This document shows, piece after piece, positions 8,060-38,509 of a DNA stretch of 64,000 nucleotides; the stretch's first letter is position 1; each line of letters starts with the position of its first letter. A program made the position numbers and the translations under genes. Under the pieces are notes generated by a model. That model was not told the DNA's origin. It made no database searches and saw nothing but the letters and a program-made list of their open reading frames with translations. Source of the stretch: Lumbricus rubellus (lineage: Eukaryota; Annelida; Clitellata; Crassiclitellata; Lumbricidae); the NCBI GenBank assembly GCA_945859605.1, contig OX243822.1, forward strand, positions 19,961,899 through 20,025,898, given 5' to 3'.

Positions 8060-9110
8060 CAGCGACAGCGGCAGCTAGAAACAGCACAACTTGACGGAGG
8101 TCACGCCGACCCATGCGGCCGTAAGGATAGATAGTAAATCCGTATTTCTTGCCCGTTAATGTTATTCCATTGAAAGCACGGTTGCTTTTATTCGCATTTG
8201 ACTTTAGTTCGGCATTTGTTTGTGTCTAAGTTTTAATATAAGTGAAATTGTCGACAGCATTCGACTCAAAAAAATGTCACACGACCACCATCTTTGGGTG
8301 CGTTTTTTTCGCAGGAAGTATACGCCTACCAGTATGGAAACCTGTTTTGACAGGTAAATGCAGGGTGAGAATTGCAGGGGGTTTGGGGGGTTTCAACCCC
8401 CCAAACCCCCTGCAATCAGTCAATCATTGCATATAATTATGGACCATGATTACTCCGCTAATGAGTGGAAAGATCTTGATATTGTACGAGTCGGGCTGAC
8501 CGTCAGCTGGCCGCTGCTGGCGGGAGAGAGTGACCAATTAAACTTAGGCTACACCACAGATCGTTTTAAAGTATATTAGGTTACATTGTACAAATGTATC
8601 TGTACAGGGCAGAATGCAAAACAGGTGGGGCAGAAAGCTGCATGTGGTTCAGACCTTGATCATACGTTTGCCTGACTGCATGAATGCACCCACTCACTGC
8701 GACTAGAAGAGAGGCAATATTAGAGTTTTCTGTAATCTATCTGTAAAGCGTGAACTTAGTGCAAATCACAAATTGTCAGCTGTTGATTATGATGTTTCGG
8801 AAGAGAAAGTGAACATTGTAAGAGGAGAAAAACCTTCAAATTATGAGAAATGGGAAACTGATTTTTCGTAGTGGTGACAGCTAATAAGTAATCGATGAAA
8901 TGACTCATCTGCAGTGAAGTAGGTATAAAAAATCCTAAAAAAGGACAACGCAAGCAGTATATTTTCGCCGAAAATTATTGTTGTAGGCCTCAATATATTT
9001 ATTGAAGTCTTAAACCAGAGTGACTCTTATCAGCACTGAAAATGTAGGCCTATAGCAATTTTGTTTAGATGACAGCCTAAAATGCTATTATTGCAATGTG
9101 GAAATTCAAA
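8060..9110. other. No gene; possible LINE 5' UTR and a GC hairpin
   Basis: About 8040-8130 is GC-rich and may be the 5' UTR of the minus-strand LINE. 8361-8416 holds a hairpin listed separately. The remainder is AT-rich without a supported exon or repeat. Confidence 0.35.
8361..8416. repeat. hAT-type terminus with perfect 22-bp hairpin
   Basis: Positions 8371-8392 and 8395-8416 are perfect reverse complements around a 2-base loop. The arms are runs of G and C broken by TTT and AAA. The preceding CAGGGTGAGAATTGC also starts the 146-bp hAT MITE at 12018, so this is probably a related element terminus. No matching right end or 8-bp duplication is visible here. Confidence 0.6.
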
Positions 9111-9274
9111 AAAATTCAAATCCCCTCTCGGTGTAAGGCGCAACGGCGATCGTCCGCTCCTTGGTCCCTACCCAAAACCGTCGAATCCCTGCCCCCCTCA
9201 GAGGAGGGGACTAGACTAAACACTGGCGGCCGTGGTAAGAATGAGAGCTTTTTATGCGGCCGACACTGACGAAA

Positions 9275-9398
9275 AGGTTGCGCACCTCTGATATATAATT
9301 GTTCGAAACCTTGTTCAAACCAAATGGGGGGCACGATACATGGGCGTTTCTAAATGGGGGTCATGGCCGGATAAGCCCCTCTGGATCCGCTCCTGCTG
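9275..9398 (-). mobile_element. Two hAT-like transposon ends
   Basis: Read on the minus strand, CAGAGGTGCGCAACC (ending near 9291) and CAGGAGCGGATCCAG (ending near 9395) both look like hAT terminal inverted repeats (CAG-starting, GC-rich). Neither has a visible partner end or 8-bp duplication, so these are fragments. Confidence 0.4.
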
Positions 9399-9402
9399 GC
9401 AT

Positions 9403-9570
9403 ACATACATGCATGCATGCATGCATACATACATACATACATACATACATACATACATACATACATACATACATACATACATACATACATACATACATAC
9501 ATACATACATACATACATACATACATACATGCATGCATGCATACATACATACATACATACATACATGCAT
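9403..9570. repeat. (ACAT)n microsatellite
   Basis: ACAT/ATAC tetranucleotide array with ATGC variants. Long frames on both strands (HTYI and CMYV repeats) are artefacts of the repeat. Confidence 0.95.
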
Positions 9571-9639
9571 GTATACATACTGTATATACATTATAAATAC
9601 AAGCATACAAACATACATGCATATACTTACAAGCATATA

Positions 9640-9893
9640 TATATCCTCTGGTCCAGGCCATTCCACACTTCCAACAAGCGTTGCTTCAGATTGTTTATAG
9701 GCTACTTTGTATCTTGGATTGCTGTCTGGTAGACTCGCTTTTGCAACGCACTCCACGCATAATTATAGTCGACAGGATTTAAATCTGGCCTGTTCAGAGG
9801 CCATAGGCAAATGTGAGAGAAATGAAGTCTGGTGTCTCTCTTGTTAGCGCTTCGATGGTTTCCTGGCTCTGTGGGCTGGCAAGGTTCTTTCAA
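9640..9893 (-). pseudogene. mariner-like transposase C-terminal fragment
   Basis: The minus strand reads WPLNRPDLNPVDYNYAWSAL then QKRVYQ. This is the classic mariner/Tc1 block around the last catalytic acidic residue (WPPNSPDLNPxDY). After an in-frame stop it continues NNLKQRLLEVWNGLDQRI, the usual C-terminal part. A TAGCCTA word sits exactly at the stop. No terminal inverted repeats are seen nearby. Confidence 0.8.
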
Positions 9894-10203
9894 TACACAG
9901 GTTGGCCCGTTGGCTTAGGCAGCTGGCTCATTAACTCGGGGTGGGGTGTTTCTGACGTCACATGCCTAGTCGATCCGACTCATGTATAACGTTCATTCAC
10001 TGTATCTGCCCAAGATCAATCCACACATTCAGTGTAACTGATGTATTGACAACAAATAAAATTAGAGATACCTAGTCACTGTGCAATCGCCAGTTGAAAA
10101 AATACGTAGTGTCTAGGACAGGTTTATCATTTCATGTATAGACAAAGTCCATCAAAATATAAATAAATAAATACATACATACATACATGCATGCATACAT
10201 ACG

Positions 10204-10237
<34 letters not shown>

Positions 10238-10383
10238 CATACATACATACATACATACATACATACATACATACATACATACATGCATGCATGCATGCAT
10301 ACATACATACATACATACATACATACATACATGCATACATACATACATACATACATACATACATACATACATACATACATACA

Positions 10384-10391
10384 TAGGCCTA
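10384..10391. other. TAGGCCTA scar in microsatellite
   Basis: Deleting GGCCTA at 10386-10391 restores an uninterrupted ACAT period across the site. The change is therefore a 6-bp insertion that turned TA into TA-GGCC-TA. Confidence 0.8.
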
Positions 10392-10465
10392 CATACATAC
10401 ATACATACATGCATACATACATGCATACATACATACATACATACATACATACATACATACATACA

Positions 10466-10473
10466 TAGGCCTA
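10466..10473. other. TAGGCCTA scar in microsatellite (second)
   Basis: The same GGCCTA insertion at 10468-10473 in an otherwise perfect ACAT run. Internal duplication of the microsatellite together with the first scar cannot be excluded, so it may not be fully independent. Confidence 0.75.
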
Positions 10474-10611
10474 CATACATACATACATACATGCATACAT
10501 ACATACATACATACATACATACATACATACATACATACATACATACATACATACATACATACATACATACATACATACATACATACATACATACATACAT
10601 ACATACATACG

Positions 10612-11028
10612 TGCGTATATGTAGGCTATGTATGTTTGCATGTATGTATGTACACATATGTATGTATGTATGTATGTATTATGTATTATGTATGCATGTA
10701 TGTATGTATTTTCTCTAGGCCTACTGAAAGTATTTGTTCATCTCTATAGCATGCATGCATGTACATGTAAGTATGTATGTATGTATGTATGTATGTATGT
10801 ATGTATGTATGTATGTATGTATGTATGTATGTATGTATGTATGTATGTATGTATGTATGTATGTATGTATGTATGTATGTATGTATGTATGTATGTATGT
10901 ATGTACATGTATGTATGTATGCATGCATGCATGTTTCACCGTGTGTGTATGTATGTATGTATGTATGTATGTATGTATGTATGTATGTATGTATGTATGT
11001 ATGTATGTATGTATGTATGTATGTATGT
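10612..11028. repeat. (ATGT)n long microsatellite, inverted relative to the previous array
   Basis: About 390 bp of ATGT repeats in two blocks (about 10630-10700 and 10768-11028) separated by a non-repetitive stretch. As the complement of the preceding ACAT array, the pair forms a potential very large hairpin centred near 10617. Confidence 0.95.
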
Positions 11029-11740
11029 CCGGGGGGATGTTCGGCTACCCAGCTGCAACTGTCATTCATGTGTACTTCTTGACTGTTAGTGCCATTCGAT
11101 TGATCATTTCTGATGCTAGGATTTGTTAGTGTCATTTAAAGCTGCTCTTAATGTCGTTCACATCTAAAATTAGCATGGGCGCCCGCACATAGGGGCAAGA
11201 AGGGGGGGCACTTGCCCCCCTTAAAAAAGTGAAACTTATTTTTTAAACTACTACTTTTGAGTTTTTAACAAATTTCTTCGCATTAAAACACTAATCATAC
11301 GAATGATACACATGTTAAAGTGATAAATATACGTTTAGAAATCTTTATAGAAATAAATATATAATTATATACCTGGTGGCGCATAAAAAACGTTCCCAAA
11401 CTTTGTTAATCTGGCAAAGATCTAATTTCAGAGATATCAAATATTAATTTACACCAAAAAGTTAAGCAATCATTTCTGTGCACACAAGTCAAATTTCAAG
11501 AGAGTATGTTTATTATATCACACTCTGCGGCAAGGTTATAACGTCGTACCTGTTAAAATATTTTGCACAAAACTACGTAATTTATTTCGTCGCGAACGAA
11601 AGTCTTCATTTGCGCCAGTAAGACTTTATCATGAGACTAGTCGTTTCTCTAAAAAATTAATGGCATCTGCTGGAGTTTCGATGCACGGTAAAACAGACAT
11701 CATCGTCATTGATCCTCGGAAAACCAAAGTCAATGGAGAG

Positions 11741-11748
11741 TAGGCCTA
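11741..11748. other. TAGGCCTA scar inside mariner transposase
   Basis: The codons run GAG-TAG-GCC-TAT-TAC. Without GGCCTA (11743-11748) they read GAG-TAT-TAC, giving the family-typical VNGEYYV. The insertion is in frame but brings a stop. Confidence 0.85.
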
Positions 11749-11821
11749 TTACGTCGGCTTGTTACGCGATAAGCTCATTCCCGAACGTCGTGTAGTACGT
11801 AGACTCAATCCTGATGACAGT

Positions 11822-11828
11822 TAGCCTA
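11822..11828. other. TAGCCTA scar inside mariner transposase
   Basis: Deleting GCCTA (11824-11828) joins AGT-TA to CATC and gives SYIFQQDSAPSH in frame, the conserved catalytic block. A 5-bp insertion at TA, one base shorter than the usual scar, broke the frame. Confidence 0.85.
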
Positions 11829-12017
11829 CATCTTTCAACAAGACAGTGCTCCTTCACATCGTTGCAGATTGGATCAGCAATTTCTTCAAGCAAACATCCC
11901 TGATTTTATCCACAGTGATGCCTGGCCTCCAAACTCTCCCGATCTAAATCCTACGGTCTACTATGCAATGTATGCATGGAGCGCCCTAAAGGAGCTTGTG
12001 TAATGTGTACGCTAGTC

Positions 12018-12163
12018 CAGGGTGAGAATTGCCGGGGGGGTTGGGGGGGTTCAACCCCCCCAGTCATTTTTAGAGCCCCATGTTAAAGTATGTTTTTCAT
12101 ACCCCAATTTCAAGTTTATCATAGGCCAACCCCCCCAGTTATTTTTCCACAATTCTCATACTG
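12018..12163. mobile_element. 146-bp hAT-type MITE
   Basis: Starts CAGGGTGAGAATTGC and ends with the imperfect complement ACAATTCTCATACTG. Perfect 8-bp duplications CGCTAGTC lie at 12010-12017 and 12164-12171. It sits inside the mariner transposase. Related ends occur at 8361 and near 38937. Confidence 0.92.
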
Positions 12164-13029
12164 CGCTAGTCGCAGAAAACCGTTTCTAAATGCTGACGAA
12201 CTAAAGCAGGTCATTGAAGTAAAAACAATAATGGTCTCTATTAGACACACACAACTAGGCCTATACAGAAGTCAACAGGACAGTGGAAACAGCGTTTAAG
12301 GGTCGTTACAAGAGAAAGAGGAGGATCAATCAAACATTTTTTCTCGCGTAAAACATCATCACTAAACAACTGTGCACAATTTTGGCCATGGCCCATTGGC
12401 CATACAGTTCTAACAACAATTTCTCTCAAATGGTTGAGTATTTTGGGATAGAATTTGGCTGTGTTGTACAAATATGAATTATGATTAGTTTGATGTACTA
12501 TGATTTAGTTTATCTTTAAAATTGTTTAATTGCCAGCCTGCCAGGTTAACAAAGTTTGGGAACGTTTTTAATGCCGTAGGTTTGTGCAAAATTTTGTAAC
12601 AGGTACGACGTCATAACCTTGCCGCAGAGTGTGATATAATAAACGTACTCTCTTGAAATGTGACATCTGTGCACATAAATGATTGCTTAACATTTTGGTG
12701 CAAATTAATATTTGATATCTCTGAAATTAGATCTTTGCCAGATTAACAAAGTTTGGGAACGTTTTTTATGCGCCACCCGGTATAATAGTGCCTTTCATGG
12801 ACCCACTTTTTAACATCTACTTTTGGATTTTTAACCAATTTTTCGCAAAAATAATACACAAAATGAAACTGAGAAATTTGCATTAAAAACGTCTTTGAAA
12901 AAATACCCGTGTTTCTAATTTCCAGCGCTGTATTTAGCATGCTTTTGTCACTGAAAAATTTAACCGTGACCACCGTAAAATTTTTGCCCCCTCCAGCAAA
13001 ATTTTCTGCGGGCGCCCATGAAAATTAGC

Positions 13030-13743
13030 CTATATTTACAATGAACGATAGTTGTGGGCAACTTCGGACTGCTAAATTAATGTAGGCTAATTAGATATTG
13101 GATCCGGAGTTTAATGGCGGCTTAATTATGACAACAAAAGACGTATTTGGCATACGGCAGCAGATTTAAAATCCTACTGATGTTATTAAATGTACGCTAT
13201 AAAGGTTCTTCGAGTACACTTGGTATGCTATAGTTTCAACAGACATGTCAGATGCCAGCAGCACTGGTCGACTAGGCATGAGACGTCACGGTTCCCCACT
13301 CCGATTCACGCATATTCATAACCCCCTCAGCGGCGCGACCTGTGTGTCTATAGATCTTGGTGGGCTGGGGCCCTGTAGCCTACTGTTGAAAAAGAAAATA
13401 ACCTTCTCGGGTTATTGATTTCTGATGACAGGCAGAAGATTTTGTTACCGCAGAACGCTGAGTCTAGACTCTCCAGAATCAATCAACTTGAATGAAGGCC
13501 AAATGGGAATGGGAAGCGTCGAAACCGCAACGGACACCATGGCAGATTTGTTAAAATGGGTACGCGTACGCGGCGTAGGCCTACGCAATAGTCTGCTAGC
13601 CTATAGGGTGTCAGTTGCGGTTTTAACTAGGCGCTTTTTACAATATGCTGGAATCTTAATATTGATAGTTCAATAATTCTCTAAAATCAATATAGGGAAA
13701 TTTTTAGTATTATAGTTTTCAGTAATAATTATATATATAATAA
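13030..13743. other. No recognised gene
   Basis: Mixed sequence holding a 13267-13305 segment that is the inverted counterpart of 9935-9975 (shared block CATGCCTAGTCGA beside GACGTC) and several TAGGCCTA/TAGCCTA words. The 83-residue plus frame at 13425 has no recognisable domain. Confidence 0.35.
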
Positions 13744-14088
13744 TTATGAACAACAGTTTGGGTTTGCCACATATTCTCCACAATCAATCAATCGGACTGC
13801 CGCTCGCCTGCCCTTTGACCCGTTCGTTTCTTCAGGGCAGTTATTTGGCACAAGCTGTCTTAGAATTTGCAATCTCATTGTCATGGCAATGGCGACGGGC
13901 GTGGAGCCATCCACGTTGCTCATAGGAACCAACGATGCAACGAGACAAGTAAACAAAACCACGAATCGTAGGAGGGAGTTCAGCACTTCAGCAGCAGGTG
14001 ACAGAGGGAGATATGAAGGGACAGGAAGGGATAGATGGAGGAATGAGGAGGTCGGAAAGGATAGGCAAGACTGAGTGCGGTGAAACAC
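13744..14088 (-). CDS. Hypothetical secreted-peptide-like frame
   Basis: A 114-residue minus-strand frame that I do not recognise. A hydrophobic stretch LLRFVVLFTCLVASLVP at about residues 39-55 could be a signal peptide if translation began nearby. It is followed by a 59-residue tail with a G-R-R dibasic site (GSKGRR) and four cysteines (CPEET ... IDCGEY ... NCCS). That layout resembles a small peptide precursor. Against this, the first Met is about 38 residues before the hydrophobic stretch, so a spliced 5' end would be needed, and the opposite strand is also partly open. It may be chance. Confidence 0.25.
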   Translation of the reverse strand: MFHRTQSCLSFPTSSFLHLSLPVPSYLPLSPAAEVLNSLLRFVVLFTCLVASLVPMSNVDGSTPVAIAMTMRLQILRQLVPNNCPEETNGSKGRRAAVRLIDCGEYVANPNCCS

Positions 14089-14353
14089 ACATGAAAGGGT
14101 TAAAGAGCGAAAGGTGAAACTGCCAGAAAGAGCCAGTAGATTAGGATGGAAACCTTATTAATGGAAGGAAGCAAGAATGATAATTGGCAGGGATCAAGGA
14201 ATGGTGGAAGAAGTAAAGAAAAGAAAGGATGGACTACAGAGATGGAAGAAAGAAACGACGGATCGCTAAGTTAGAAACTTTGTACGAATCAACGTCGAGC
14301 AAATTGAAGAAATTATGAAAGTCATGCACCAGTCCACTGAGTCCAGACATCTA

Positions 14354-15523
14354 CAGGGTGCGGCAAAAAAAGACCCCCCTAGGTTTTTTGGAAATATCTT
14401 GGCCAAAAGTAAGAATTTCCAGATGAAATTTTACAGTCTTAAAGACAATTCATATTTACACGTGATGAGCAGATTTGATCAAAATATTTCAAACTGAACA
14501 AAAGTTATGCCACTTTTAGGGAGGTCACCCATCGTTTTTTGACGATTCAAAAACGAAGCGCATCAAAAACTAGGTTTTTGGCCAATATCTTGGCGAAAAG
14601 TAAGAATTTCAAAATGAAATTTTACAGGCCTAAAGACAATTCATATTTACACATGATGGCCAGATTTAATCAAAATAGGTCATACACAACAAAAGTTATA
14701 CCACTTTTAGTAAGACCACCCACCGTTTTTTGACGATTCAGAAACGCAACAAAAAGTAACAAAAACACGATTTTATTAAGTCTCACGATCTCATCTCAAA
14801 TAACTGTTGTCAAATGAACTTGGTAGTGCTTTACAACTTGTGTGCAATGTGCCCACCACCAGTGCAAACACTTCTTTTGAGTCTCTTTGCAAAGTTCTTG
14901 ATGGACGTGTTGATTAATCTGACAGATTCTTTATTTACCAATTTGATTGTCATCTTTCTAAGTGACTTCTCAGTGACGCGCAGCTACGCTGGTACCCTGT
15001 TTATTTTTTAAATAGTACCAATAATGATTATCTGGGAACATTAAGGCTATTTGATAACAATATTATTTGAAATTAGAAAAAATCGTGTTTTTTGTTACTT
15101 TTTGTTGCATTTCGCCTTTGAATCGTCAGAAAACGGTGGGGTGGCCTCCCTAAAAGTGGTATAACTTTTATTCTCTTTGAAATATTTTGATGAAATCTGA
15201 CCATCATGTGCAGATATGAATTGTCTTTAAGCCTGTAAAATTTCATTTCGATATTCTTACTTTTGGCCAAGATATTGGCCAAAATAATTAGATTGTTTTA
15301 TTTTTACTTTTTGTTGCGTCGCGTTTTTGAATCGTCAAAAAACGGTGGGTGACCTTACTATAAGTGGTGTAACTTTTGTTGTGTTCGAAATATTTTAATG
15401 AAATCTGGCCATCTGGTGTAAATATGAATTGTCTCTTAGACTGCAAAATTTCATTTCCAAATTCCCACTTTTGGTCAAGATATTGGCAAAAATCTTAGGG
15501 GGGTCTTTTTTTGCCGCACCCTG
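14354..15523. mobile_element. TA-flanked (Tc1/mariner-type) element built from inverted tandem arrays
   Basis: Ends CAGGGTGCGGCAAAAAAAG / CTTTTTTTGCCGCACCCTG, with flanking TA at 14352-14353 and 15524-15525. Each arm carries two copies of a unit of about 180-190 bp (marked by ACGATTCA and AAACGG/AAACGA), and the arms are inverted. The centre holds, on the minus strand, a relic like that in the neighbouring element, where it reads KNFAKRLKRSFGTGGGHIEH. That resembles the C-terminal Arg-rich GGHIEH end of Tc1/mariner transposases, suggesting a deletion derivative. Confidence 0.8.
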
Positions 15524-15709
15524 TACAACAACATCCTACAACGTCGATTGGAGCAAGTATTCCTAAAGCTACTAGGCCTACGCTTTCTGCCACGCGTGGC
15601 GTCACGTACTTGGCACGTAGCACTCATAAACATGTTATTATTAGGTGCATGCTTCATTTTAATCATTGATGTTATTGACGCATCATGCATGCTATGTCCA
15701 CTCGATATA

Positions 15710-16681
15710 CAGAGTGGGCCAAAAAGACCCCCCTAGGTTTTTTGATAAAATCTTGGCCAAAAGTAAGAATTTTGAAATGAAATTTTACAGGCCACAAGAC
15801 AATTCATATTTACACCAGATGGCCAGATTTCATCAAAATATTTCAAACACAACACAAGTTATACCACTTTTAGCGAGACCACCCACCGTATTTGACGATT
15901 CAAAAACGAAACACAACAAAAAGTAGCAAAAACACGATTTTAATAAGTCTCATCTCAAATAACTGTTGTCAAGTGAACTTGGTAGTGCTTCACAATTTGT
16001 GTTCAATGTGCCCACCACCAGTGCCAAAACTTCTTTTGAGTCTCTTTGCAAAGTTCTTGATGGACCTCTGATTAATCTGACAGATTTCTTATTTACCAAT
16101 TTGATTGTCATCTTGCTAAGTGACTTCTCAGTGACGTGCAGCCATGCTGGTACCCTGTTTCTTTTTTAAATAGTACCAATAATGATCATCTGGCAATATC
16201 AAGGCTATTTGATAACAATTATTTGTGATGAGACTTAATAAAATTGTGTTTTTGCTACTTTTTGCTGCGTTACGTCTTTGAAACGTCAAAAAATGGTGGG
16301 TGGTCTCACTAAAGGTGATATAACTTTTGTTCTGTTACAAATATTTTGATGAAATCTGGCCATCGTGTGTGGATATGAATTGTCGTGAAGCGTGTGAAAT
16401 TTCATTTTGAAATTCTTACTTCTGGCCAAGATATTGGCTAGAATAATTGAGTTGATTTTTTGTTACTTTTTGTTACGTCGGGTTTTTGAATCGTCAGAAA
16501 ACGGTGGGTGGCTTCACTAAAAGTGATGTAACTTTTGTTCTGTTTGAAATAGTTTAATGAAATCCGGCCATCTGGTGTAAATATGAATTGTCTTTAAGAC
16601 TGTCAAATTTCATTTCGAAATTCTTACGTTTGGTCAAGATATCGGCAAAAATCTTAGGGGGGTCTTTTTTGGCCCACCCTG
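15710..16681. mobile_element. Second TA-flanked element of the same family
   Basis: Ends CAGAGTGGGCCAAAAAG / CTTTTTTGGCCCACCCTG between TA at 15708-15709 and 16682-16683. The left arm has one repeat unit, the right arm two, and the central relic (about 15960-16170) is shared with the neighbour at 14354. The difference in unit number shows that these arms expand or contract. Confidence 0.8.
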
Positions 16682-16984
16682 TAGACCTATGTACATGTAT
16701 ACGCCGATGGACGTGACATTCTGTGAAGTGTCGCCATTTCTGAAATAATTAATAATTTTGGCCCCATAAGCTGCTGTTTTCTTTTAATCTCATTATTTTG
16801 TCTGACATCATTTTATTTCCTACTAGACCTACTTATACTACGCTTACTAATATCTCTATTCTCTATTACGCAAGTTCTACTATATATGCCTAGGCCTACC
16901 AATATTTCAGCAACTATAGAGCCTACCAGGCCTAGTGCATGATGAACAACTACAACTACTGCCGCTCCCACCATCACTAATCTA

Positions 16985-17005
16985 CTACTGCTGTTGTTGT
17001 TGTTG

Positions 17006-17077
<72 letters not shown>

Positions 17078-17084
17078 ATGATGG
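16985..17084. repeat. Compound (GTT)n(GCT)n(GAT)n microsatellite
   Basis: Runs of GTT, then about 20 GCT units, then GAT units, directly at the 3' end of the minus-strand SINE, so the tract is probably its tail. Confidence 0.9.
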
Positions 17085-17348
17085 TTCTCTGCCCGAAGGC
17101 AGGTTCATTGGCTTTACGCCTCTGGTATGAGATGAGTGAGGTGGTTTCCCGTTGCCTTCCCCTCAGTAAGTAAGCAACTTGCACAAGGTCGTTCCGCAGG
17201 AGCTTGCACCCCTGCGTCCCACACGTGCTAGCCCGAGATATCGGAATCTCTGAATGTCAGCTCCCAGCCCGGGACTTGAACCGCAGTCCATTGCAACCTA
17301 CAGACGTATATATCGCTCTCGCTTACCGGTGTAGCTAACGAGGCCAGT
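17085..17348 (-). mobile_element. tRNA-derived SINE
   Basis: On the minus strand the unit starts near 17348 (TGGCCTCGTTAGCTACACCG). It shows a box-A-like TAGCTACACCGG and a perfect box B GGTTCAAGTCC about 60 bp later, the internal Pol III promoter of tRNA-like SINEs. The body ends in the compound triplet tract. It differs from the SINE at 26462 and 33958. Confidence 0.7.
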
Positions 17349-17349
17349 A

Positions 17350-18230
17350 ATCTACCACTATAGTAGGCAGATGATATTAATATTATTAGAATTTTATATT
17401 ATAAGAACAGAATAGAACACAGCTGTTCCCGCGGGTCAAAAGTGACCCGCCTACAAAATGGCCCTCATCTCTCAATTAATTTTTAAAATTTGTGCAAAAA
17501 TTGGCAATGTTGACATAGGGACTAATGGAACAAAAATTATTTTCTGAGACCACTTAATTTATTTCGACGTCTATAATTTAATAACATCAAACATTCTATT
17601 TTGAATCAATTTTAACAATTATTATGCTTTTATATGATTAAATTTTAGCCTTGTGGCCCACAAATGTCCTTCAACTAAGTAAAATTGGCCCTCGTGCCCT
17701 CCAGCTTAGAAAAAGTGGCCCTGAAGTCAAGAAAGGTTGGGAACCACTGGATTACTGCATAACTTGTAAAATTAATGTAAAGCGCAGTGCATCTTGCAGG
17801 CGTTTCAATAAAGAAAAGATTAATATTATTATTATTAGGCCTACATGTAGGCTATTATAATTATAGGCTTACTTGACTGGAATATCGTCGCACAAGTTTT
17901 CGACGATAATCGGAGTTCAGGAAAGTTTCATATTTTGTTTACAAAACAAAGGCGTGCCTTTAATTATGTTTAGCATCGAAAGCAGATTGACGAACAATAA
18001 TAATATTTCGTTTGCAAAGTTAACAAATTGCCTGTGGATATTCAAAACATCACCCTTATCTATAGCTGCTTAGCAGCAGAAACGGAATTTTAAGTGGTGC
18101 GCCATCTATGGTTGAGAGTGAAATCATCTATAGGCCTACTGTACGTAGGCTAACTGTGGTGAAATAGACGGCCTCAAAATGTTCACCAAACCACTCCTGT
18201 TTTTGCTTAGTCCATGGTCCTTGGCCTTAA
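17350..18230. other. No gene; possible hAT right end
   Basis: GGTTGGGAACCACTG ending near 17752 is the complement of a common hAT start, CAGTGGTTCCCAACC. No clear left end or 8-bp duplication is found. Otherwise AT-rich with several TAGGCCTA words. Confidence 0.35.
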
Positions 18231-18242
18231 CCTGACCCCAGG

Positions 18243-18385
18243 GATGACCTGACCCCTACTGTCATTCTTTGGATTGCTGTAGCCAATCAGCAATGCTTCC
18301 ATTCAACCTTTGACCTGACCTTGCCTCGTTGTGACATAAATGACGTCACAACGTGCAGCCATACAACACAATGGCGGACTTGAAG
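18243..18385 (+). promoter_or_regulatory. Putative promoter and first coding exon
   Basis: Clustered motifs: GCCAATCAG (CCAAT box) at 18282, TGACCT half-sites at 18245, 18311 and nearby, a perfect CRE TGACGTCA at 18341-18348, then ACAATGGCGGAC at 18369 (Kozak-like start, YY1-like word). The ATG at 18371 reads Met-Ala-Asp-Leu-Lys and meets a donor AAG|GTGGGC at 18386 in phase 0. The next acceptor found (TTTCTTTCAG before 19990) is also phase 0, so this short exon could be the 5' end of the gene at 19990. No TATA box is evident. Confidence 0.45.
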
Positions 18386-19161
18386 GTGGGCAAAGTCAAA
18401 TTTTCAACTCGTCTTCTCCTGTTAAAAATCTCGTCTTATGTATAATTGATACCAGTCCATAGAGTGTGATTATTTAAACATTCAATCAATCAATCCAGTA
18501 TTTCGAGCGATCGTTATTTAACGTTATAATTATAGAGAATGAATTGGTTTGACCGGTAGCCTAATCTTAGGCGTAAACAATTATGAATTTTCGAGATCTA
18601 AACGTCTTGCTTCTATGGAGGATTACTCGTTTACAAATCACTCAAAGCACCAAGCTGTGCTAGGATCAATTAAATACAAACCAGAATCATAAGCCATTTG
18701 AAAAGCCAGATTTGTTTGTGACCAGGGCTGTACACGAGCATATGATTGCATTTTTGTCACAGATGTACAGTTTGTTGTTGACGTCGTGTCTTGTTTTATG
18801 TTATTTTTATTCTATTTTTATGTGTTTTGTTTGTTTTCTTAAGAATAGCCTTGTCTTCTATTCGTGGACACTACACCTAGACCCATAAGTGAATATGAAG
18901 TATGCATATAGGATGATAAATTGAAAAGAATTGTCTAATGACCATTGCAATAGGGGACCTGGTTAGCGTAACATTCGGTTCTTTTGGGTTTACTCATGGT
19001 CACCGAAATGTACATATACTTTCTGTTACGCTTGAACGGTTTTGGTGAACAGTTAAGGTGTATCCATTAAATTAATAATATTAATTATTCACCCATCCAT
19101 CTATGGACCCATGCATCTGTCAGCTGTCGATGAGAATGCGTTGGCTGGTTTCACTTGTGTG

Positions 19162-19454
19162 CATGGGCGTCCACAGAAATTTTTCTAGGGGGCGCAAACT
19201 TTTAAATAATTTTTACATGTATGGTCTAAATTTAATGGGTGACAGTTTGAATTTCCATATTACCACGAGAGAATCCTGTAGCCTACCTATACGTTATGTG
19301 CCCAAAGAAAGATATATAGGTTCATCTTGTAGAACGAATCGATAATCACATTGAAAATCGCGTTGTAACAATCACAACCAAATAATCTTAATTTATGGGC
19401 AACTATGTGAAAAATCCAGGGGGGCGCACTTGCGCCCCGCTGCGGACGCCCATG
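19162..19454. mobile_element. 293-bp hAT-type MITE
   Basis: Begins CATGGGCGTCCACAG and ends GCGGACGCCCATG. Perfect 8-bp duplications CTTGTGTG are at 19154-19161 and 19455-19462. The ends resemble those of the outer element at 11174. It lies in the proposed first intron of the neighbouring gene. Confidence 0.9.
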
Positions 19455-19536
19455 CTTGTGTGCGTTAGTACGCCATTTTTGGCTCTTTCAGCTTACTGTG
19501 CATTATTTTGTAACAGATGTGATATAAGCTTATAAG

Positions 19537-19735
19537 CGAGTTCACCATCTCAGTGGTCAAAGGTCAATGATACAATAGATGGTGTATATACCAAAAGTTC
19601 GGAAACTTAAAGACTCGCGCATTGCGAATTTGCAAGTTTTATATAATATAACATCTATTGTATCACTGTTTTCACTTAGGCCTACCTTGACCACTGCGCA
19701 CACGCACACGAAAGGTCACTGAGGTGGTGAACCTG
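19537..19735. mobile_element. Small inverted-repeat element
   Basis: AGTTCACCATCTCAGTG at the left faces CACTGAGGTGGTGAACC at the right. A second inverted pair lies inside (TGATACAATAGATG and CATCTATTGTATCA). The duplication is unclear; GCTTAT occurs on both sides. Confidence 0.6.
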
Positions 19736-27293: not shown

Positions 27294-27925
27294 CGGCATA
27301 CCTGGGAACGGCGGTCCCAAATTATAAAATGACAGAAATCGATAGGCTATCTCCTGAGAAGGCATTAAACATGATGTGTGGTGAAATAGAAGCTGGATAA
27401 ACGGCATTCCAGCTGAAATAGAAGCTGGATGCATGCTGAAATACATCACTGAAATCAACAATCCAGTTTCCATGTCTGAAGTTTCATTTTCGTCAATCCA
27501 GTTTCTATTTCACTTATACCTAAGGAAACTTCATCCAGCATCCATTTCGCAAGCATTTTAATTAATCCATCTTCCATTTAACTTATTATGTCTATCATCC
27601 AGGTTCTATTTCTCAACCGTTCAATTCATCAATCCAGTTTCTATTTCAGATCTAAAAAATACCTTCATTCAGCTTATATTTCACTTGCGTTTTTTTCATC
27701 AATTCACTTTCATTTCACCTGTAAAAGGTCTTCATCCAGCTTCCATTTATCAAGTGCTTTCTCATTATTCCGGCTTCTATTTCGGTAGACCAGCTGGCCG
27801 TTTTATAAGTGTGGAGTGCAAAAGAAACCGTTTCTATGCGCCCCTCCAATACACCGCACTATTACGACACATCATGTTGATTTACTTAATGTCATAATTT
27901 GGGACCGCCGTTCCCAGGTATGCCG
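27294..27925. mobile_element. Element with perfect 32-bp inverted repeats and internal minisatellite
   Basis: 27294-27325 and 27894-27925 are perfect reverse complements (CGGCATACCTGGGAACGG...). Flanking TATTT on both sides suggests a 5-6 bp duplication. The interior is a degenerate tandem array of about 35-45 bp built on CATCCAGCTTCTATTTCA, inverted in its first part. No transposase. I cannot place the superfamily. Confidence 0.8.
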
Positions 27926-28264
27926 ATATTTCGTTAGTCGAGGATTTCCAAAGGGTTGGGATTGCATTTACTAATATCTCAGTACGTACAGCGTCATAAA
28001 ATTATGTAGGACACTTTAGCCATGTTTTCGTGGCTTAGGGAACCAAATTATTCACAGGCGCTTCGTTGATTAAGCCTACAGTAACTGGTGTGAACTACTG
28101 ATTTACCCGGAGGCTGCGTTGAGACGGGAATCTGGGTCAACCATGGCGAGATGGACCGCAGATTGTTGGCGAGTACTGTGATGTTGTTGAAATGTGTCAA
28201 TGAAGGTTTGAGCGAGTTGATAATTTCGAGGCATCTGAGCGATTTCCTCGTCGCGCTACACAGC

Positions 28265-29056
28265 CAGACTTGTTGTCATCAAGACCAAAGTCTTGGTCTC
28301 GAGTGCGCTCGAGTTCGGTTTTAAAAGGCTTGGTCTTGTTCTTGGTCTTGAGAATAAAAGTCTTGGTCTTGGTTTTTCAAGACCAAGACCTGCCTTCACT
28401 GCCCTTCAGTATTAACATTGAATAATCAGAGTGATTTTTAAGGTAGTGGGGTCGATGTAAGTGCATTAGTGGAAATCAATGGGTAGCGTTATTCAGGAAC
28501 AGTTATAAATGCTGTATCTGGAAGCCCTGCCAAGACTCATATCAGAAGCCAGGCGGTCAGATACGCCATTGCAGGATTTTAAAAAAGACTCACGATTTCT
28601 AAATTTATATCCAGTACTTGAAAAGATGCTGTGCGTGCCAGCAACTTCAGCACCTGTAGAACGTATTTTTTTCGCATGGTGGAATTTTCATGAGGGCACG
28701 CCTTGGTCAGAAAATTCTGAGTGAATTGGTTCTGTTAAAATGCAACAGCCATTTGCAATAACATTGCACATAATCACATTAAGGAGTTTTGTGGGCACGA
28801 GCTGAACTCGGAATTCTCTGCAGTTTGGTTATAGAGTTGCTTTGTTTGAATAAATTTATGCGTTTTCATTAAGATAGCAGAACCTGCATTTTCGCAAGGT
28901 CTTGTCTTGGTCTTGAGACCAAAAGTCTTGTCTTGGTCTTGAGCCCAAAAGGCTTGGTCTTGGTCTGAAGAGTAAAAGTCTTGGGCTTGGGCTTGAGGTT
29001 CAAAGTCTTGTTCTTGGTCTTGACTCTTGAGGTTTGAGGTCTTGACAACAACACTG
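28265..29056 (+). mobile_element. hAT element, internally deleted
   Basis: Starts CAGACTTGTTGTCATCAAG and ends CTTGACAACAACACTG, with perfect 8-bp duplications TACACAGC at 28257-28264 and 29057-29064. Both subterminal regions are arrays of GTCTTGGTC repeats, probably transposase-binding sites. The centre keeps the end of the transposase gene. Confidence 0.92.
28509..28761 (+). pseudogene. hAT transposase C-terminal dimerisation domain
   Basis: Contains LNLYPVLEKMLCVPATSAPV then ERIFF, the hAT C-terminal signature. After a one-base shift in a T run it continues SHGGIFMRARLG, then KILSELVLLKCN, to a stop at 28759-28761, also typical. The N-terminal catalytic half is missing. Confidence 0.9.
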
Positions 29057-29324
29057 TACACAGCCACACGGCGTGGCTTGACATTGCGTACAGCTGAGGT
29101 GTTAAAGGATGAGGAGGTGGCAGAGGAAAGTAGTTCTGGTTTGGAATCCAAAAATCAGGGCTTGTCTGATGAGCGTCTCACGAGTGTAGGCCGTCTGCCA
29201 TGTCACAATGTCGACTGTCTTAGGCGTCAGCTGGACATCCTGTTGGAAAAATTGCATCACCCTTTGCTTATTCTACAGAATGGGCCATCACCTTCACCAA
29301 CACCTAAGCCTCCTTAGGCATGTG

Positions 29325-29550
29325 CTAATTCATTCATTCATTAAATGAATGTGTGTATCGCCTCTTCAAAGGGGCTATTCAGATGTGCTCCCAACCCCAG
29401 TGCAGCCAATTGAAATTGTTTTAAGATGAGAGAGGAATACCTGAGAAGGAATTCTAGACCTGGAGTGGTGCATCAAGGATAGGTCATTCCAGATGGGTCG
29501 AGGGTCCTTCCATCGAGAAGACACGGTTCTGCATAGTGGAGGTATTGTAT
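29325..29550 (-). pseudogene. L2-like LINE 3'-end fragment
   Basis: Starts with ATTCATTCATTCATT (the reverse-oriented terminal TGAATGAATGAA tail) and continues through a degenerate 3' UTR resembling the 25038 copy (GCGCTGG-like words, TTCCAGA, ACGGTTCTGCAT). No open frame remains. Confidence 0.6.
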
Positions 29551-30077
29551 TGCATTATGATAGATCTGGGAAGATATAATATGTGACTTATCTGCACAAA
29601 ACCAGTCATAAGTGATAAATTTCTGTTTCAAGAAAACAAGCAAAAACTAGCACAAGTGCAATATTTTCTAATTATTAGGATAAATTACCGGTATAGATTA
29701 TAATTTAAAAATATATATATTATGCAAATAAACAAAACGTTCGAGTAAAAGTAACATTGAAGAGTATTATATGGACGATTTCATACAAGTTATGATTTGC
29801 ATTTTTTTTTCTCGTTAAATATTGTCCATGAATGCAAGTAGTTTTTCATCGATAAACTCAGTTAGGATTGACATAAAATGATAAAATGAGTGTCATTTTT
29901 AAAGAGAATTTGTTTCTCGTGACAATGATATATTAAACTCAAAAAGTGAAAAATCCTACTTAAGACTGGTTTGTGCAGATGGGTCACATATACAATTATC
30001 TCTGAGTAGGTGTAGTAGGTGTCTTGAAGGAGTTATGTATCAATTTATATTGATTGATTAATTGATAACCTCATTTA
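29551..30077. other. No recognised feature
   Basis: AT-rich sequence with one TACCGGTA word (29686-29693). No supported exon or repeat. Confidence 0.4.
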
Positions 30078-31153
30078 TAGTGTTGTGAGGCGGAAATATT
30101 TCCCGGAAAGTTTCATATCTTTCCGGAAACTTTCGGAAACTTTCCGACGTATCTTTCCGGAAACTTTCCGAAAAATTTCCGATATTTTTCCATCAATACA
30201 ATATTACTAAATAACAATTTAAATCCATAAATATGCTTAAACATCAATCACTGTAAGCTATATTATATAGTAATTGCTGATTTTTTTCATTCAATAAACA
30301 ACACTTATTGCTTACTGTTTAGTGTACACACCGACAATACATTTAAGAATTAATTGCAATCAGACTTAATTGTTATTATGAAGAAATTTTTTATGATTTG
30401 GTCACCTAACTCTTCTTATTTTTTTACTTCTGAAAATATGAAACAAAAACAGCAATTGATTCAGTACACTATAGACACCATATGTTTTAATAAGTACTGC
30501 AACAGATTAATTCCTACATACAATTACTTTATGCGTGAAATATGATGTTATTGGCAATGCCATTGCAGTGTGAGACTAATCTATTTTCAAATCTGCTTTT
30601 CTTGGTAAGCAGCAAAGAATATGCTTTGGTTTAAATTTTCCATCTATGAGTTGTTGCCTTGAGTAAGCAGTGTATGGACAAGGAAAAGCCTTTTTATTGT
30701 CTTATGTAACCTTATTTATTATTTACCGTCCATAATAATTTTCTTCAATTTATTACTTCTAAAATCCCTTACATTCTTTCCTTACTTTCAAGGATTTAGC
30801 TAATTTACATCACCATTTAACTGTTGCAATATAATCCTAAATAGCACAGTGAAAGAAATAGTTGAGCAGGCTCAAAGCAGCTGCCAAAATGTCAAATTGT
30901 CAGATATTCTGAACTGCTAATGAAAGCATTTAATGGTAATTTTAATTCTTTAAGGTGAACATTTCCCACATTGCCAATAAAAGGAACTTTAAAAATTCAA
31001 ATTTTCCTATGTTTTCTGATAGGGAAAATGTGACATTATGTGTTAGATGTATTTTTCGGTCTACGGAAAGTTTCCGGAAACTTTCCGGAAACTTTCCCGA
31101 AAGTTTCCGGAAAGTTTCCGGAAAAATATCTTTCCGGAAAAGCTACATCACTA
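30078..31153. mobile_element. hAT-type non-autonomous element, 1.08 kb
   Basis: Ends TAGTGTTGTGAG / GCTACATCACTA (one-mismatch core TAGTG-TGT), with perfect 8-bp duplications CTCATTTA at 30070-30077 and 31154-31161. Both subterminal regions are dense arrays of GGAAACTTTCC, itself a palindrome, likely transposase-binding sites. The 850-bp interior is AT-rich without a transposase. Confidence 0.9.
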
Positions 31154-31849
31154 CTCATTTATACCACTGACTCGATCAAACTTGTGAAAATTATTAGCAG
31201 CAAGAGTGTGATTGCACTTTATTTGATTTACCTGTCTGAACTTGATGTTTACCTGTCTGTACATAATTTACCTGTCTGCCTAATTACAGGTGAACATCAC
31301 GCCCGTTCCATCTCCAGTGTGTTTGAGGAAGCTGGTTCGAAAGTGTCTGGTACTCTGGTTGAGGCCATCATGCGACCAACAGGATTCAGTCTCTTCTCGC
31401 CTTTGTGATTCAGGACGAGAATGGTACGACATATTGACCCATGACCTATTGTGTTATGACCTCATGACCCAACCTATTATATTATGGTATCTATTATGAT
31501 AGCAACCTACTCCACCCACCCATCACCACCCGTCTTCCCATACTACTTCCTTCCGGTCCTTTTAGCCACCAATACCAGAAGTAGTTGTGCTTTTGTGGGT
31601 AGTTTTGCCAGAATTTATACCCACACATTTTCAATCAGATATTAAGGTTCCCAACTATTGGAAAATTTCCCTATAATATTCTAACTGTTTCAGTTTTTTA
31701 CTGTTTTAAAATACGTGTCCGTGCATTCACAAGATCTGAGGTATTCAATGTATAGGATGGATTTAGATTTGATTATGCTAGGGTCTGTTTGGACACATCC
31801 ATTTACTGGGAGTCTTGATTTGATGTTATTGATTTGGGTTCAGTAGTAG

Positions 31850-32015
31850 TAATAAAATTTATAATAATGATAATGATAACAATAATAAAGGCCATCATCA
31901 GGCTGTGGTACTCGGTTTTAAGAGGAACAAAATGATGATAATAATAGTAATAATAATAGTAGCAATAATAATAGTAATAATAATAGTAGCAATAATAATA
32001 ATGAATATTAATGGT
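31850..32015. repeat. (AAT)n-rich imperfect microsatellite
   Basis: AATAATAATAGTAATAA-type tract split by a short unique stretch near 31890-31930. The surrounding 31424-32281 has no other supported feature. Confidence 0.85.
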
Positions 32016-32281
32016 AAGTGCTTATTAATTTAAACTGACAAGTAGGCAGTAAGATTACACGATGAGTGACATATAATAACAAGTCACACAGTTTAGCAAT
32101 CTTGAGTTAAATTCAGCTACGCTCTCTTTGCCTCTAGGAAGTAGAAAGCTGAGTCAACCTCACAAGGTATTGAACACACATCCTGATCTTCATGTCAGCA
32201 TCTTGCCTTTCAACCATCTTCTGACTCCTCATTTGCTCTCTTCTTTCTGGCTGTTATTTATCAATTTATCTGTGATTTTTC

Positions 32282-32456
32282 CAGGGCTTTTTAAAGGGAT
32301 TTTTAGAACTGCACAACTTCTTCTTTCTCTTCCCATCCTACATGCAAATTAATCGAACCTTTTTTACTAGTTTTACCTGTGCCGAAGTGCTTCTACAACT
32401 GCACAAATTCGTTTAAAACTGCACATTTTGTGTACAACTGCATGCTAAACGCCCTG
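32282..32456 (+). mobile_element. hAT-type MITE, copy 1 (CAGGGCTTTTTAA family)
   Basis: Ends CAGGGCTTTTTAAAGG / AACGCCCTG. Octamers GATTTTTC (32274-32281) and GATTTGTC (32457-32464) agree at 7 of 8. Body words: AGAACTGCACAAC, GCTTCTACAACTGCACAAAT, ACTGCACATTTTGTGTA. Confidence 0.88.
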
Positions 32457-33218
32457 GATTTGTCAATGACTGTGGCTAGTATTTTTTGTATGATGTTTTG
32501 TATAGATTTTGGAACTTATTCAAATGAACGCGAATGAAGGGACGCCTGGGAATGACGCTCGAGCTGCACACTGAAGTCAGCACCAATTGGCGGAAAGGTT
32601 CCTTATGAAGACGGTTCTATTTCCGCTTCTGCAGTGCCCTGAGAAGTCAGGTGGCCTGGAAGCTGTGTTTTTTAACAATTGATTGCTTGATTGATTTATT
32701 GTGTTTTAAATTGGTTGGTTGATTGATGAATTGATTAATGAATTGAATGATGGATGGATTGATTTATTAATTAATGAGTTGGTTAATATATTTTATTATT
32801 TTTTTTGCCATATGTTTTATATTAATAGAATAAACGAATTGCCAAACAACTACAGGCAAAGATTTTTTGCTAACTGAAAAGGTTACTTGAATAATTAATT
32901 GGATAACGTTATAAACAATAAAATCAAAAAGTCTTTACACTAATGAGGTATGCATGAAGACTGTAATGAATTCATAAAGCTTATGCCAGTTAAGGTCTTC
33001 TTAATTAAACAAATATCAGTTTATCAATCAAGTTTATTTTATACCATTTCAATTAATTTACATGTAAAGGCAGAAAATACAATTCCAATGGGTGATACTC
33101 TAATGAACCAAAGGTTCCGCAAACAGGGCAGCCCTAGGGTAAGCATGTTTCTGTCAGTCTAATCAACACTGTGTTTTATATAGTTAATTTTATTGTCTTT
33201 TAATTTATGCATTTTTAG

Positions 33219-33401
33219 GAGCAAAGTGTACTGGATTTTCCGCCATATGGATCTTCCAACAACCCTCGGCTTTCTCCGCCAGGTCTGCCATGAGATTGTC
33301 GTCGATCCTAACGATCGTTCCGTCATTCGAATGAGCAATGAGCTCGGATTCTTCTCCAGCGGAGAGCGCAGTAGATTGAGTATCGTGACACCGCCCAGGA
33401 A
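33219..33401 (+). pseudogene. Exon-like block of TANGO6-like gene
   Basis: Flanked by TTTTTAG| and AA|GTACGT. One phase is fully open: SKVYWIFRHMDLPTTLGFLR, then QVCHEIVVDPNDRSV and SIVTPPRK. The other phases contain stops. Its end phase does not join the next block at 33795, which needs phase 0, consistent with decay or a missed exon. Confidence 0.55.
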
Positions 33402-33794
33402 GTACGTAATAACAATGATTGTGATGGTGATGATGATAAAAATGATAATGATCTTTGTTTTATTTGAAATTTACACAATGCAGTATGATTACAATTCATA
33501 TTATGAACGTATGATCACCAGTTATCACAGGAGTTGAATTTCACTGCCTGGCAGCTGTGCAAGGTGTCGTAGCGTCCTAGTGCTCATTATGCCATTTGCC
33601 AAATTGAAGGCTGAGTTAACCAGTATGTAGTCCATGCGCTCTTCGTGCCATTGAGTTATCGTTACACGAAACCCTGTATCCATGAATGGTAGATAAAAAG
33701 CATAGCTTATTAGATGATGGAGGACGGAAGATTGCAGTAAGTAAATTATGGAGGTGACAATAAAGGCTGTGTGGACTTCTTTTACTTGTTGCAG

Positions 33795-33911
33795 AAAGTC
33801 AACATTGGACATCAGCGGTGGGAGTCGTTGGCTGAGAGCATCGTACATTTGATCATTTCATCGAAACGTCAAGACAACATTGGTATCAAGCTGTTTGTGC
33901 TCTGTCTTAAG
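33795..33911 (+). pseudogene. Exon-like block of TANGO6-like gene
   Basis: Between CTTGTTGCAG| and AAG|GTAAAC, exactly 39 codons, phase 0 at both ends: KVNIGHQRWESLAESIVHLI then ISSKRQDNIGIKLFVLCLK. Helical HEAT-like composition. Confidence 0.55.
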
Positions 33912-33957
33912 GTAAACCTGACTTACAGAGTCCTGCTCTAGAACCAATACCAATCAT

Positions 33958-34176
33958 GGGGCGCGGTGGTGTAGTGGTGGCGTCGTTGCCTTGGAGCCGG
34001 AAGGTTCGAGGTTCGAATCTACCTCGTTGCGTAAGAACCTTGGGCAAGTCCTTCACTCACAATTGCTCAGCGCTTCGGCGTGAAACTCTGATGCAGTGTC
34101 CGCTCTGCATTCAGGAGCGCCTCTGAGTAGGGAGAGAGTTTGAAGGGGTGCTCGCTATAAGAAGTGCACATACAAA
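33958..34176 (+). mobile_element. tRNA-derived SINE, second copy
   Basis: Near-identical to the SINE at 26462: box-A word TGGTGTAGTGG, box B GGTTCGAATCT, the same body, and tail GGAGCGCCTCTGAGTAG ... GGGTGCTCGCTATAAG with a small insertion in the final hairpin. Placed just after an exon-like block of the TANGO6-like gene. Confidence 0.88.
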
Positions 34177-34199
34177 GAAACCACAAATACTACCACCAT

Positions 34200-34495
34200 T
34201 TCAGAAATTGAACTGTAATAAGTGTGCAAAGAAATGCTTGCTCAGACCACCAGGCACTGCGGTCCGATTTTCACTTTATGGTCCTTTTCGCCTGCTCTGC
34301 GACAATGATAGCTGTTCCTTCTCTGGTTGGTCTAACAACCTGGAATGGGCTTCCCTTGACTATACGACACCTCCCAAACTAGTCTCAGCTTCATCAATTG
34401 TTAAAGACTGATTTTTCCCCTGCTTGGCATGGGCCAGGAGCATCTCTGAGTAAGGATCTAGTAGTGGTGCTATATAAATATCGATTTAATGATTT
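34200..34495 (+). pseudogene. LINE 3'-end fragment
   Basis: Degenerate CR1/L2 tail (FSLYGPFRLL, NNLEWASLDY) followed by GAGCATCTCTGAGTAAGG and GTGCTATATAAATATCG, i.e. the same 3' UTR block as at 25038. Confidence 0.6.
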
Positions 34496-34556
34496 TAACA
34501 TTTTTATCATATCTGAAGGTAATTATATATAAGAAGGCACATGTACTAGAAGATAC

Positions 34557-34752
34557 CAGGGCTGTTTTTAAGGAATTTTTAGTACTGCACAACTCCTTCT
34601 TTCCTTTCCCTTCCTCCATGGTAAATTACTTTTAATTAATCAGAAGGCAACGGCTTTTTTGCTAGTTTTAACTGTACAGACGTGCTTCTACAACTGCACA
34701 AATCCATTTAGAACTGCACATTTTGTGTACAGCTGCACGTTAAAAAGCCCTG
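34557..34752 (+). mobile_element. hAT-type MITE, copy 2
   Basis: Same ends and body as copy 1. Flanking octamers GAAGATAC and GATGGTAC agree at 6 of 8. Confidence 0.88.
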
Positions 34753-35904
34753 GATGGTACTATTTTATAAGTTACTTATATTAGAAGGTACCTATTTTAG
34801 AAGGTACTTGTATTAGAAGCCACTTATATTATTATATTTATTAGAATATAGTGGTGACTCCGAAAGTGGTGGTGTCCAGATGTATTAGTGATGGTGGTAG
34901 TGGTCTTATAATTGTAATGGTTCTCCTTGAGATGGTGATTGTTACGCTAAGATGGTGGAATGTATAATGCTCATGTATGTAAATGAAATATTTTTAATTT
35001 GTGACAATTAAGTTAATTATAAATTATTTTTATCGTAGTGCTTGGACGATATCATCTCTGACAAGGTGGATTCATCCAGAAAGGACGTAATCATGGATAG
35101 CCATGGAAGAAGAAGAGGAAGCAGAGAAGGAGGAATCTTTAGATCCAGCCATTTTGATTCGGAGGCTGGAGAGGCGATGTGTGATAGGATTGGACCATCC
35201 CGCATTAACAAATCCACCCATATTCTCAGTTGGTTGTGGCTTGTTGATTACAATTGAAGCCTGAGTAAATATTTTATTCGTCGGTGATGTGGTAACTTCT
35301 CAGTGTTCTTTTTTGGTGTTAATGCTGAATTCACTGAAAATACTGAGCTTTAAATTAAAGTGACTATTAAATAATTTCCACATAGGATATACATAAAAGA
35401 GAATTTTGTTGGTAGTTGAAGGTCTCGGAATTCCATTCTTTAGCATGGAATCTATAAAAAGAACTTATAGTAAATTGACTGTCTACCCTACATTTTAATT
35501 CAACTCCTGCTAGACTTGCTATTATCTGCTACTGTTAAAATCTGACTGCATACTTGAATTAGTTTAAATGTTTTGAATTAATAAACGAGTACTATTGTTA
35601 GTATTATTTTTTATTAATATTATAATTGTCATTATAATTATTGTTATTATTTCTTTACATATTAAGATCATAGATTATTATTACTGGGCCCATATTTGTT
35701 TATTTTTTACTGTTTCATGTTTGAAATTATTGTGTTGGTTTTTCCATGAAGGCAACACTGACAAGAGGAGTGAAGATCTTTTCAGAATACAAGTGACGCA
35801 TGTTCGGAGCCTTTGAAATGGAGATGCTGAGCATGGCTCTCAGTCTCCTAACTTCACTCTTTGCTGACAAAGAAAAGGTTCACTGTTTATTTTATTTACT
35901 TTGG

Positions 35905-36020
35905 AGGGCTTTTTTAACGTGCAGTTCTACACAAAATGTGTAGAACTTTGAAAACGAATTTGTGCAGTTGTATTAAAAACCGTCTTGTGTAGTGAAAATC
36001 ATCAGAAAAAGGTAATTACA
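35905..36020 (-). mobile_element. hAT-type MITE, copy 4, truncated and inverted
   Basis: AGGGCTTTTTTAACGTGCAG is the complement of the right end of the family. The body follows in reverse to about 36020, then is lost. Lies in an intron of the TANGO6-like gene. Confidence 0.75.
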
Positions 36021-36129
36021 GCCGGTTCACAACGGAAGAAGAAAGTGAAACGAAGGGTGTGCGCAGTGGAAAATATGCAGCAGGAAGAAAGAAGGCCAAA
36101 ATCCGAAATTCCAAGCCGCTGACTAAAAA

Positions 36130-36252: not shown

Positions 36253-36296
<44 letters not shown>

Positions 36297-38423: not shown

Positions 38424-38509
38424 TTAATATGATTTTGTTAAATTATATCAATACTAATTGAATTAAATACTGTATTTGTATTATTTTATTACATTATTAT
38501 TATTATTAT

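Follow-up and report, generated by a model that had tools for sequence, protein, structure and literature searches.

Introduction

Tc1/mariner transposons (Tc1, Sleeping Beauty and Mos1) leave upon excision two copies of TA that enclose 2-4 bp derived from the element ends, explained by a model of 3-nt overhangs (PMC7827188, PMC2642840, PMC7913693). Sleeping Beauty and mariner transposases place their nicks 3 nt within the element, so that 3-nt 3' overhangs remain, and the footprints formed by NHEJ are equal to the overhangs (PMC7827188). Mariner footprints in vivo are often less variable than the cuts obtained in vitro and are consistent with a 5' break lying 2 or 3 nt within the element (PMC2642840), and Tc1/mariner footprints measure 2-4 bp (PMC7913693). 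Stowaway, a TA-targeting MITE, leaves TA-flanked terminal-repeat remnants of 1-4 bp in Triticeae, with repeated hits at one TA (PMC1925063), and the ends of ISL2EU elements usually start with GG (PMC4482050).

We analysed a 64-kb window of Lumbricus rubellus (OX243822.1) in which the octamer TAGGCCTA and the seven-base forms TAGGCTA and TAGCCTA place a TA on either side of GGCC, GGC or GCC. This core differs from that of the Tc1 footprint, which is CATG, and from the CC-type ends of the mariner-like remnant present in the window, and, unlike in Tc1/mariner, a single type of scar is found at high density and its source element was not found in the window. Stowaway differs in its end sequence, in the presence of the elements themselves and in having several distinct footprints (PMC1925063), while ISL2EU and PIF/Harbinger elements duplicate AT or TWA (PMC4482050), neither of which was seen in the window.

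Over-representation of the motif

The octamer TAGGCCTA occurs 29 times in the window against 0.59 expected, the highest of 100 dinucleotide shuffles reaching 4, and its expectation is 0.58 under a Markov-2 and 1.37 under a Markov-3 model; among the 8-mers of the window, simple-repeat units alone rank higher. The seven-base forms are likewise 29 together (13 TAGGCTA and 16 TAGCCTA). The recurrence proposed in the initial annotation is therefore borne out, with all of the positions it gave verified, and the excess over shuffled and Markov expectations is clear within the window. With tandem repeats, one inverted-repeat arm and two local duplicates masked, the counts were 22 octamers (0.4 expected) and 26 seven-base forms (3.4 expected), and 200 simulations under an order-3 model trained on scar-free sequence gave on average 0.45 octamers (at most 3) and 3.2 seven-base forms (at most 11). 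That such scars are common genome-wide is an extrapolation carried over from this one window.

Among the matches listed from the open-licence literature, neither titles nor abstract openings described GGCC scars, and the octamer used as a query brought up no title on the subject. Scar motifs in simple repeats and the compound scar described below had no match in viral contigs or in genome contigs, these collections consisting of viruses and prokaryotes and being silent on eukaryotes, and the window contained no match to Rfam at gathering scores and no tRNAs. The octamer may also occur in sequences from other marine animals and from fish.

Insertion at TA dinucleotides

For 12 of 58 sites another part of the window matched across the site, and for the majority of the 58 no empty state is readable. 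In our judgement seven events are readable (10384/10466, 10622, 42998, 54108, 11741, 11822 and 59890) and six of these are insertions, so that the change from TA to TA-GGCC-TA (or to the GGC/GCC form) proposed initially holds for all but 59890. Left out were 10716 (empty form 159, filled 149 bits) on account of its microsatellite alignment, 13597 and 17848 (weak, empty form only), 17836 (weak, filled 38.3 against empty 35.6) and 50814/55314 (motif in both arms).

The window contains an inverted duplication of 3.97 kb with a 393-bp spacer (48895-52867 and 53261-57240), which either arose recently or reflects a fold-back in the assembly. Its arms differ by five substitutions in 3973 aligned bases and by one homopolymer base, and the sole multi-base indel between them is GGCCTA at a TA (a looser BLAST of the arms extends slightly beyond them into the spacer and shows a gap of 7 bases at this inner edge). 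The right arm has TAGGCCTA at 54108-54115, and the empty counterpart (..AATGCTTACATAGG.., 52001-52055, forward strand) in the left arm has a TA at about 52019-52020. A repeat unit is present six times across both arms and GGCCTA is absent from five of the six, although in two of these five (52274 and 53854) the site itself is diverged; the filled state at 54108 is therefore derived, as a 6-bp insertion. Insertion within near-identical arms points to recent activity, as judged from one event. Since a near-perfect inverted repeat of 4 kb can come from a folded read or from mixed haplotypes, an assembly or sequencing artefact at this key locus had to be weighed; it would be unlikely to produce at a TA the very octamer of which the whole window has an excess, the other events are independent of the inverted repeat, and we regard it as highly improbable.

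A second comparison is provided by TAGGCTA at 42998-43004, which has a TA as its counterpart in a diverged copy at 57922-57993 (82% identity over 73 bases using the empty form), relative to which it is a 5-bp insertion. The single-TA empty state expected of repeat copies is thus seen at 54108 and 42998, which place the insertion claim on firmer ground than in the initial annotation, but not at 59890: the alignment of the octamer at 59890-59897 with a related copy of the retroelement at 61630 is ungapped, and this octamer is therefore not an insertion.

The octamers at 10384-10391 and 10466-10473 lie within an ACAT microsatellite, as annotated initially, but probably represent a single event copied inside the array, not two. 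They are 82 bp apart, their filled forms score highest through matching one another, and we counted them as one event because their 160-bp surroundings are 97.5% identical. The claim that TAGGCTA at 10622-10628 interrupts an ATGT run finds weak support in the slightly higher score of the empty form (134 against 126 bits) in comparisons with the ACAT array at 9.45-9.57 kb. At 17836-17854, adjoining an ATT array, three consecutive scar-like units read TA-GGCC-TA-CATG-TA-GGC-TA, an arrangement only suggestive of a triple scar.

Product spectrum and sequence context

Ranked by excess, GGC/GCC leads the three-base class of TA-x-TA words (26 against 4.2 expected) and GGCC the four-base class (23 against 0.54). 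On a two-strand scale GGCC is found 46 times between repeated TAs and at most 6 times between any other repeated dinucleotide. TAGGCGCCTA was not found in the window (0.02 expected). The set of products is not strictly closed, as TAGGCGTA/TACGCCTA, one substitution away from the octamer, number 5 against 0.76. AT-rich TA-x-TA words also exceed expectation (TAATTATA 24 against 3.9; TATAATA 35 against 12.5), which indicates that the model underestimates some words.

These counts bear on an element-free process in which a host enzyme would cut at TA, the ends would be filled in, a template-independent polymerase would add G to each 3' end and joining would give TA-G(n)C(m)-TA. Such a process accounts for the TA duplication, for the order of G and then C and for the lack of any element, and the excess of TAGTA/TACTA (110 against 72) could fit a one-base addition, although we gave this excess little weight because TAATA/TATTA (213 against 169) exceeds the model too. 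A spread of lengths is what it predicts, however, and neither TAGCTA (2 against 7.1) nor TAGGTA/TACCTA (13 against 15.4) is in excess, while TAGGGCCTA and TAGGCCCTA are absent from the window (0.16 expected each); we consider it distinctly unlikely. The repeated dinucleotide also disfavours footprints of a PIF/Harbinger-superfamily element of the ISL2EU or PIF type, because it is TA. The ISL2EU ends usually starting with GG (PMC4482050) would suit such an origin; AT duplication would be expected to produce ATGGCCAT (0 against 2.65) and TWA duplication TAAGGCCTA/TAGGCCTTA (reverse complements taken as one count, 0 against the small expectation of 0.28), and this origin seems very improbable indeed.

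For analyses of context, 10466, 40065, 41123 and 59890 were dropped from the octamers, leaving 25, and the inverted-repeat copy 55314 from the seven-base forms, leaving 28. The base adjoining the TA was C or T at 36 of 50 flank positions of the octamers and at 41 of 56 of the seven-base forms, with a background of 49% (chi-square against other TAs 20.1 and 19.3, respectively, 3 d.f.), and the counts of the two forms per 4 kb are correlated (r = 0.79). Because they have this flank preference and their regional density in common, both forms probably come from one process.

Beyond the one pyrimidine on each side, the pooled set has no strong consensus over the next five positions (chi-square 2.7 to 7.8, 3 d.f.), which argues against the octamer being part of a longer dispersed repeat instead of an independent insertion. 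Local duplicates do exist, since besides 10384/10466 the octamers 40034/40065 occupy opposite halves of a near-perfect hairpin and 41104/41123 lie in two repeats of a tandem with a 19-bp unit, but the contexts differ, and empty sites exist in the 54108 and 42998 pairs; membership of a longer repeat is scarcely credible. The hairpin (40018-40088) is 71 bp long and 98.6% self-complementary, with TAGGCCTA in each half.

Distribution and age

The sites are strongly clustered along the window, with a variance/mean ratio of 6.7 that not one of 5000 randomly drawn sets of TAs reached. With second-arm copies of the inverted repeat excluded, 13 of 52 sites fall in 40-42 kb and none in 28001-40000, a scar-free 12 kb that is not accounted for by GC or CpG content. 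In 2-kb bins the Spearman correlation of scar density was 0.37 with TA count (p 0.04), 0.29 with CpG observed/expected (p 0.10) and -0.08 with GC (p 0.66), and clustering below 100 bp within the bins was within chance (6 gaps no longer than 30 bp, against 4.35 at random). The densest stretch spans 2.3 kb (40034-42348) and contains, besides 5 seven-base forms, 14 TAGGCCTA of which two are local duplicates, and a second dense stretch extends over 8545-19684.

Derivatives differing by one substitution number 24 for the octamer (12.3 expected) and 74 for the seven-base forms (87 expected). In a long steady state without selection derivatives would, by our reckoning, be about as many as intact copies, and their small number therefore indicates that the scars are young overall, or kept. 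The latter would be expected if the motif were a functional palindromic site, such as a protein-binding motif under selection, and not a scar. Its eight-base palindrome and the shortage of derivatives are in keeping with this, but young age accounts equally for the shortage, the motif is found as an insertion within a microsatellite, in a disrupted transposon reading frame and in just one of two repeat arms, and the seven-base forms have the same context as the octamer; we hold selection on a functional site to be very unlikely.

The mariner-like remnant

A mariner-like remnant at 11371-12784 is flanked by TA, and its two terminal arms share 94% identity across 210 bases. Its ends read CC(T/G)GGTGGCGC and two scar sites lie inside it, both of which had been annotated initially as breaking mariner codons. 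At 11822-11828, the 5-bp insertion of TAGCCTA breaks the frame immediately upstream of YIFQQD, where reading resumes in another frame aligned to the WVFQHD block of the Sleeping Beauty transposase; this alignment is weak (E = 0.036 and 0.0062), and the Pfam DDE_3 match is under the cut-off (14 and 12.9 bits against 28.6). At 11741-11748, TAGGCCTA places an in-frame stop (TAG) in a transposase-like frame that is open on either side. The Sleeping Beauty alignment begins only downstream of 11741, and the residues expected there are those that we take to be typical of mariner proteins. The 6-bp form can thus introduce a stop and the 5-bp form a frame shift.

Because of its CC-type ends, the remnant is not the likely source of the scars. 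TACCGGTA, the scar word predicted for its CC...GG ends, is found 4 times (1071, 29686, 41084 and 47037) against 0.28 expected, and TACATGTA, which we take to be the word expected for Tc1 ends, 5 times against 0.94; with such small counts these excesses serve as a rough internal check of the footprint model.

Search for a source element

TA-flanked inverted repeats of 60-6000 bp were scanned for after masking of tandem repeats, a match of the first three bases of the two ends being required, and of the resulting 273 pairs the best 60 and the 21 that start with GG were inspected. None of the pairs listed from the 64-kb window proved to be an element with GGC...GCC ends, and the 60 TAGGC sites outside the scars had no common continuation by eye; both approaches agree with the initial statement that no TA-specific source element is seen in the window. 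The pairs recovered included the mariner (11384-12768), 14352-15525 (TA-CAGGGTGCGG) and 27299-27920 (TA-CCTGGGAACGG), and many more lay inside the inverted-repeat arms. Outside the arms, two of the pairs listed start with GG: 15496-15735, a member of the repeat family at 14.3-16.7 kb, and 42177-42348, a weak candidate that was rejected as probably due to chance because it has the octamer itself at both ends and few further bases match. The missing element is not fatal to an excision origin, because scars of cut-and-paste transposition can accumulate without a rise in copy number.

Excision footprints as the favoured explanation

We consider it probable, if well short of certain, that the motifs were left as footprints by the excision of a cut-and-paste element that targets TA and has ends 5'-GGC...GCC-3'. 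Such an element would duplicate its TA target upon insertion, and its excision would cut about 3 nt inside its 5' ends, leaving flanks with 3-nt 3' overhangs that carry GGC on either strand. Overhangs paired over three positions, with the outer bases matched and a G:G mismatch in the middle, would yield TA-GGC-TA or TA-GCC-TA, while pairing over the central 2-bp palindrome GC followed by gap filling would yield TA-GGCC-TA. Insertion at TA for six events, the excess, the few product types and the common context are directly supported in the window; what we infer is that an element was present, which ends it had, how long the overhangs were and how they were repaired.

The initial annotation had proposed excision scars of a TA-specific element with GG...CC ends. 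The few products, and TA being the sole dinucleotide whose repetition around GGCC is in clear excess, agree with the former part, but the ends call for revision: GGC...GCC ends with a 3-nt stagger are preferred over 2-nt GG...CC ends because GGC/GCC is about as common as GGCC and because none of GG, CC and GC by itself exceeds expectation. A relation to Tc1/mariner would be the likeliest filing. The TA target is duplicated around a remnant, here of 3-4 bp within the range of 2-4 bp, whose derivation from element ends is putative. Against the excision reading stand the very high scar load of about 0.8 per kb (from 53 sites over about 60 kb, minus about 4 by chance), the lack of a GGC...GCC-ended element in the window, the ordinary sequence at 59890 and the clustering. 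To our knowledge, the ends of known elements do not begin with GGC (those of Tc1 begin CAGT.., those of the mariner in the window CC..). Excision repair can also vary widely, with 8 of 94 perfect for rice DNA transposons (PMC4423477).

A bolder version is unlikely: a TA-targeting system with GGC...GCC ends, belonging to no nameable family, with recent hits at about 1/kb and visible almost only by its scars, or else a host enzyme that excises germ-line DNA at TA. If this were true, one type of 5-6-bp insertion would be a leading class of small indels in the species. If excision footprints extend genome-wide, scars would count excision events independently of surviving elements, with the end bases readable from the scar, and would allow direct measurement of how often the element moved in the past, of its choice of targets and of repair in the germ line; they would also account for one of the strongest short-word biases of the window.

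Other repeats in the window

An open reverse-transcriptase frame of 1000 aa (RVT_1) lies at 43273-46275 on the reverse strand and is 73% identical to its best relative (7996 candidates scored, 484 relatives, the best 120 of the 484 listed), and related, apparently interrupted stretches are found at 46690-48954 and 58073-63189. In our judgement such frames, the mariner-like remnant and the microsatellites give the window a eukaryotic character. The region 14350-16690 contains a family of direct and inverted subrepeats of about 180-300 bp, one pair of which has TA-CAGGGTGCGGCAAAAAAAGACCCCCC ends. The TA-flanked 618 bp at 27299-27920, whose terminal inverted repeats are perfect over 20 bp and start CCTGGGAACGGCGGTCCC, are possibly a MITE. 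A minisatellite-like array of four copies spaced by 151-155 bp occupies 58867-59492, and long ACAT and ATT microsatellites are also present in the window.
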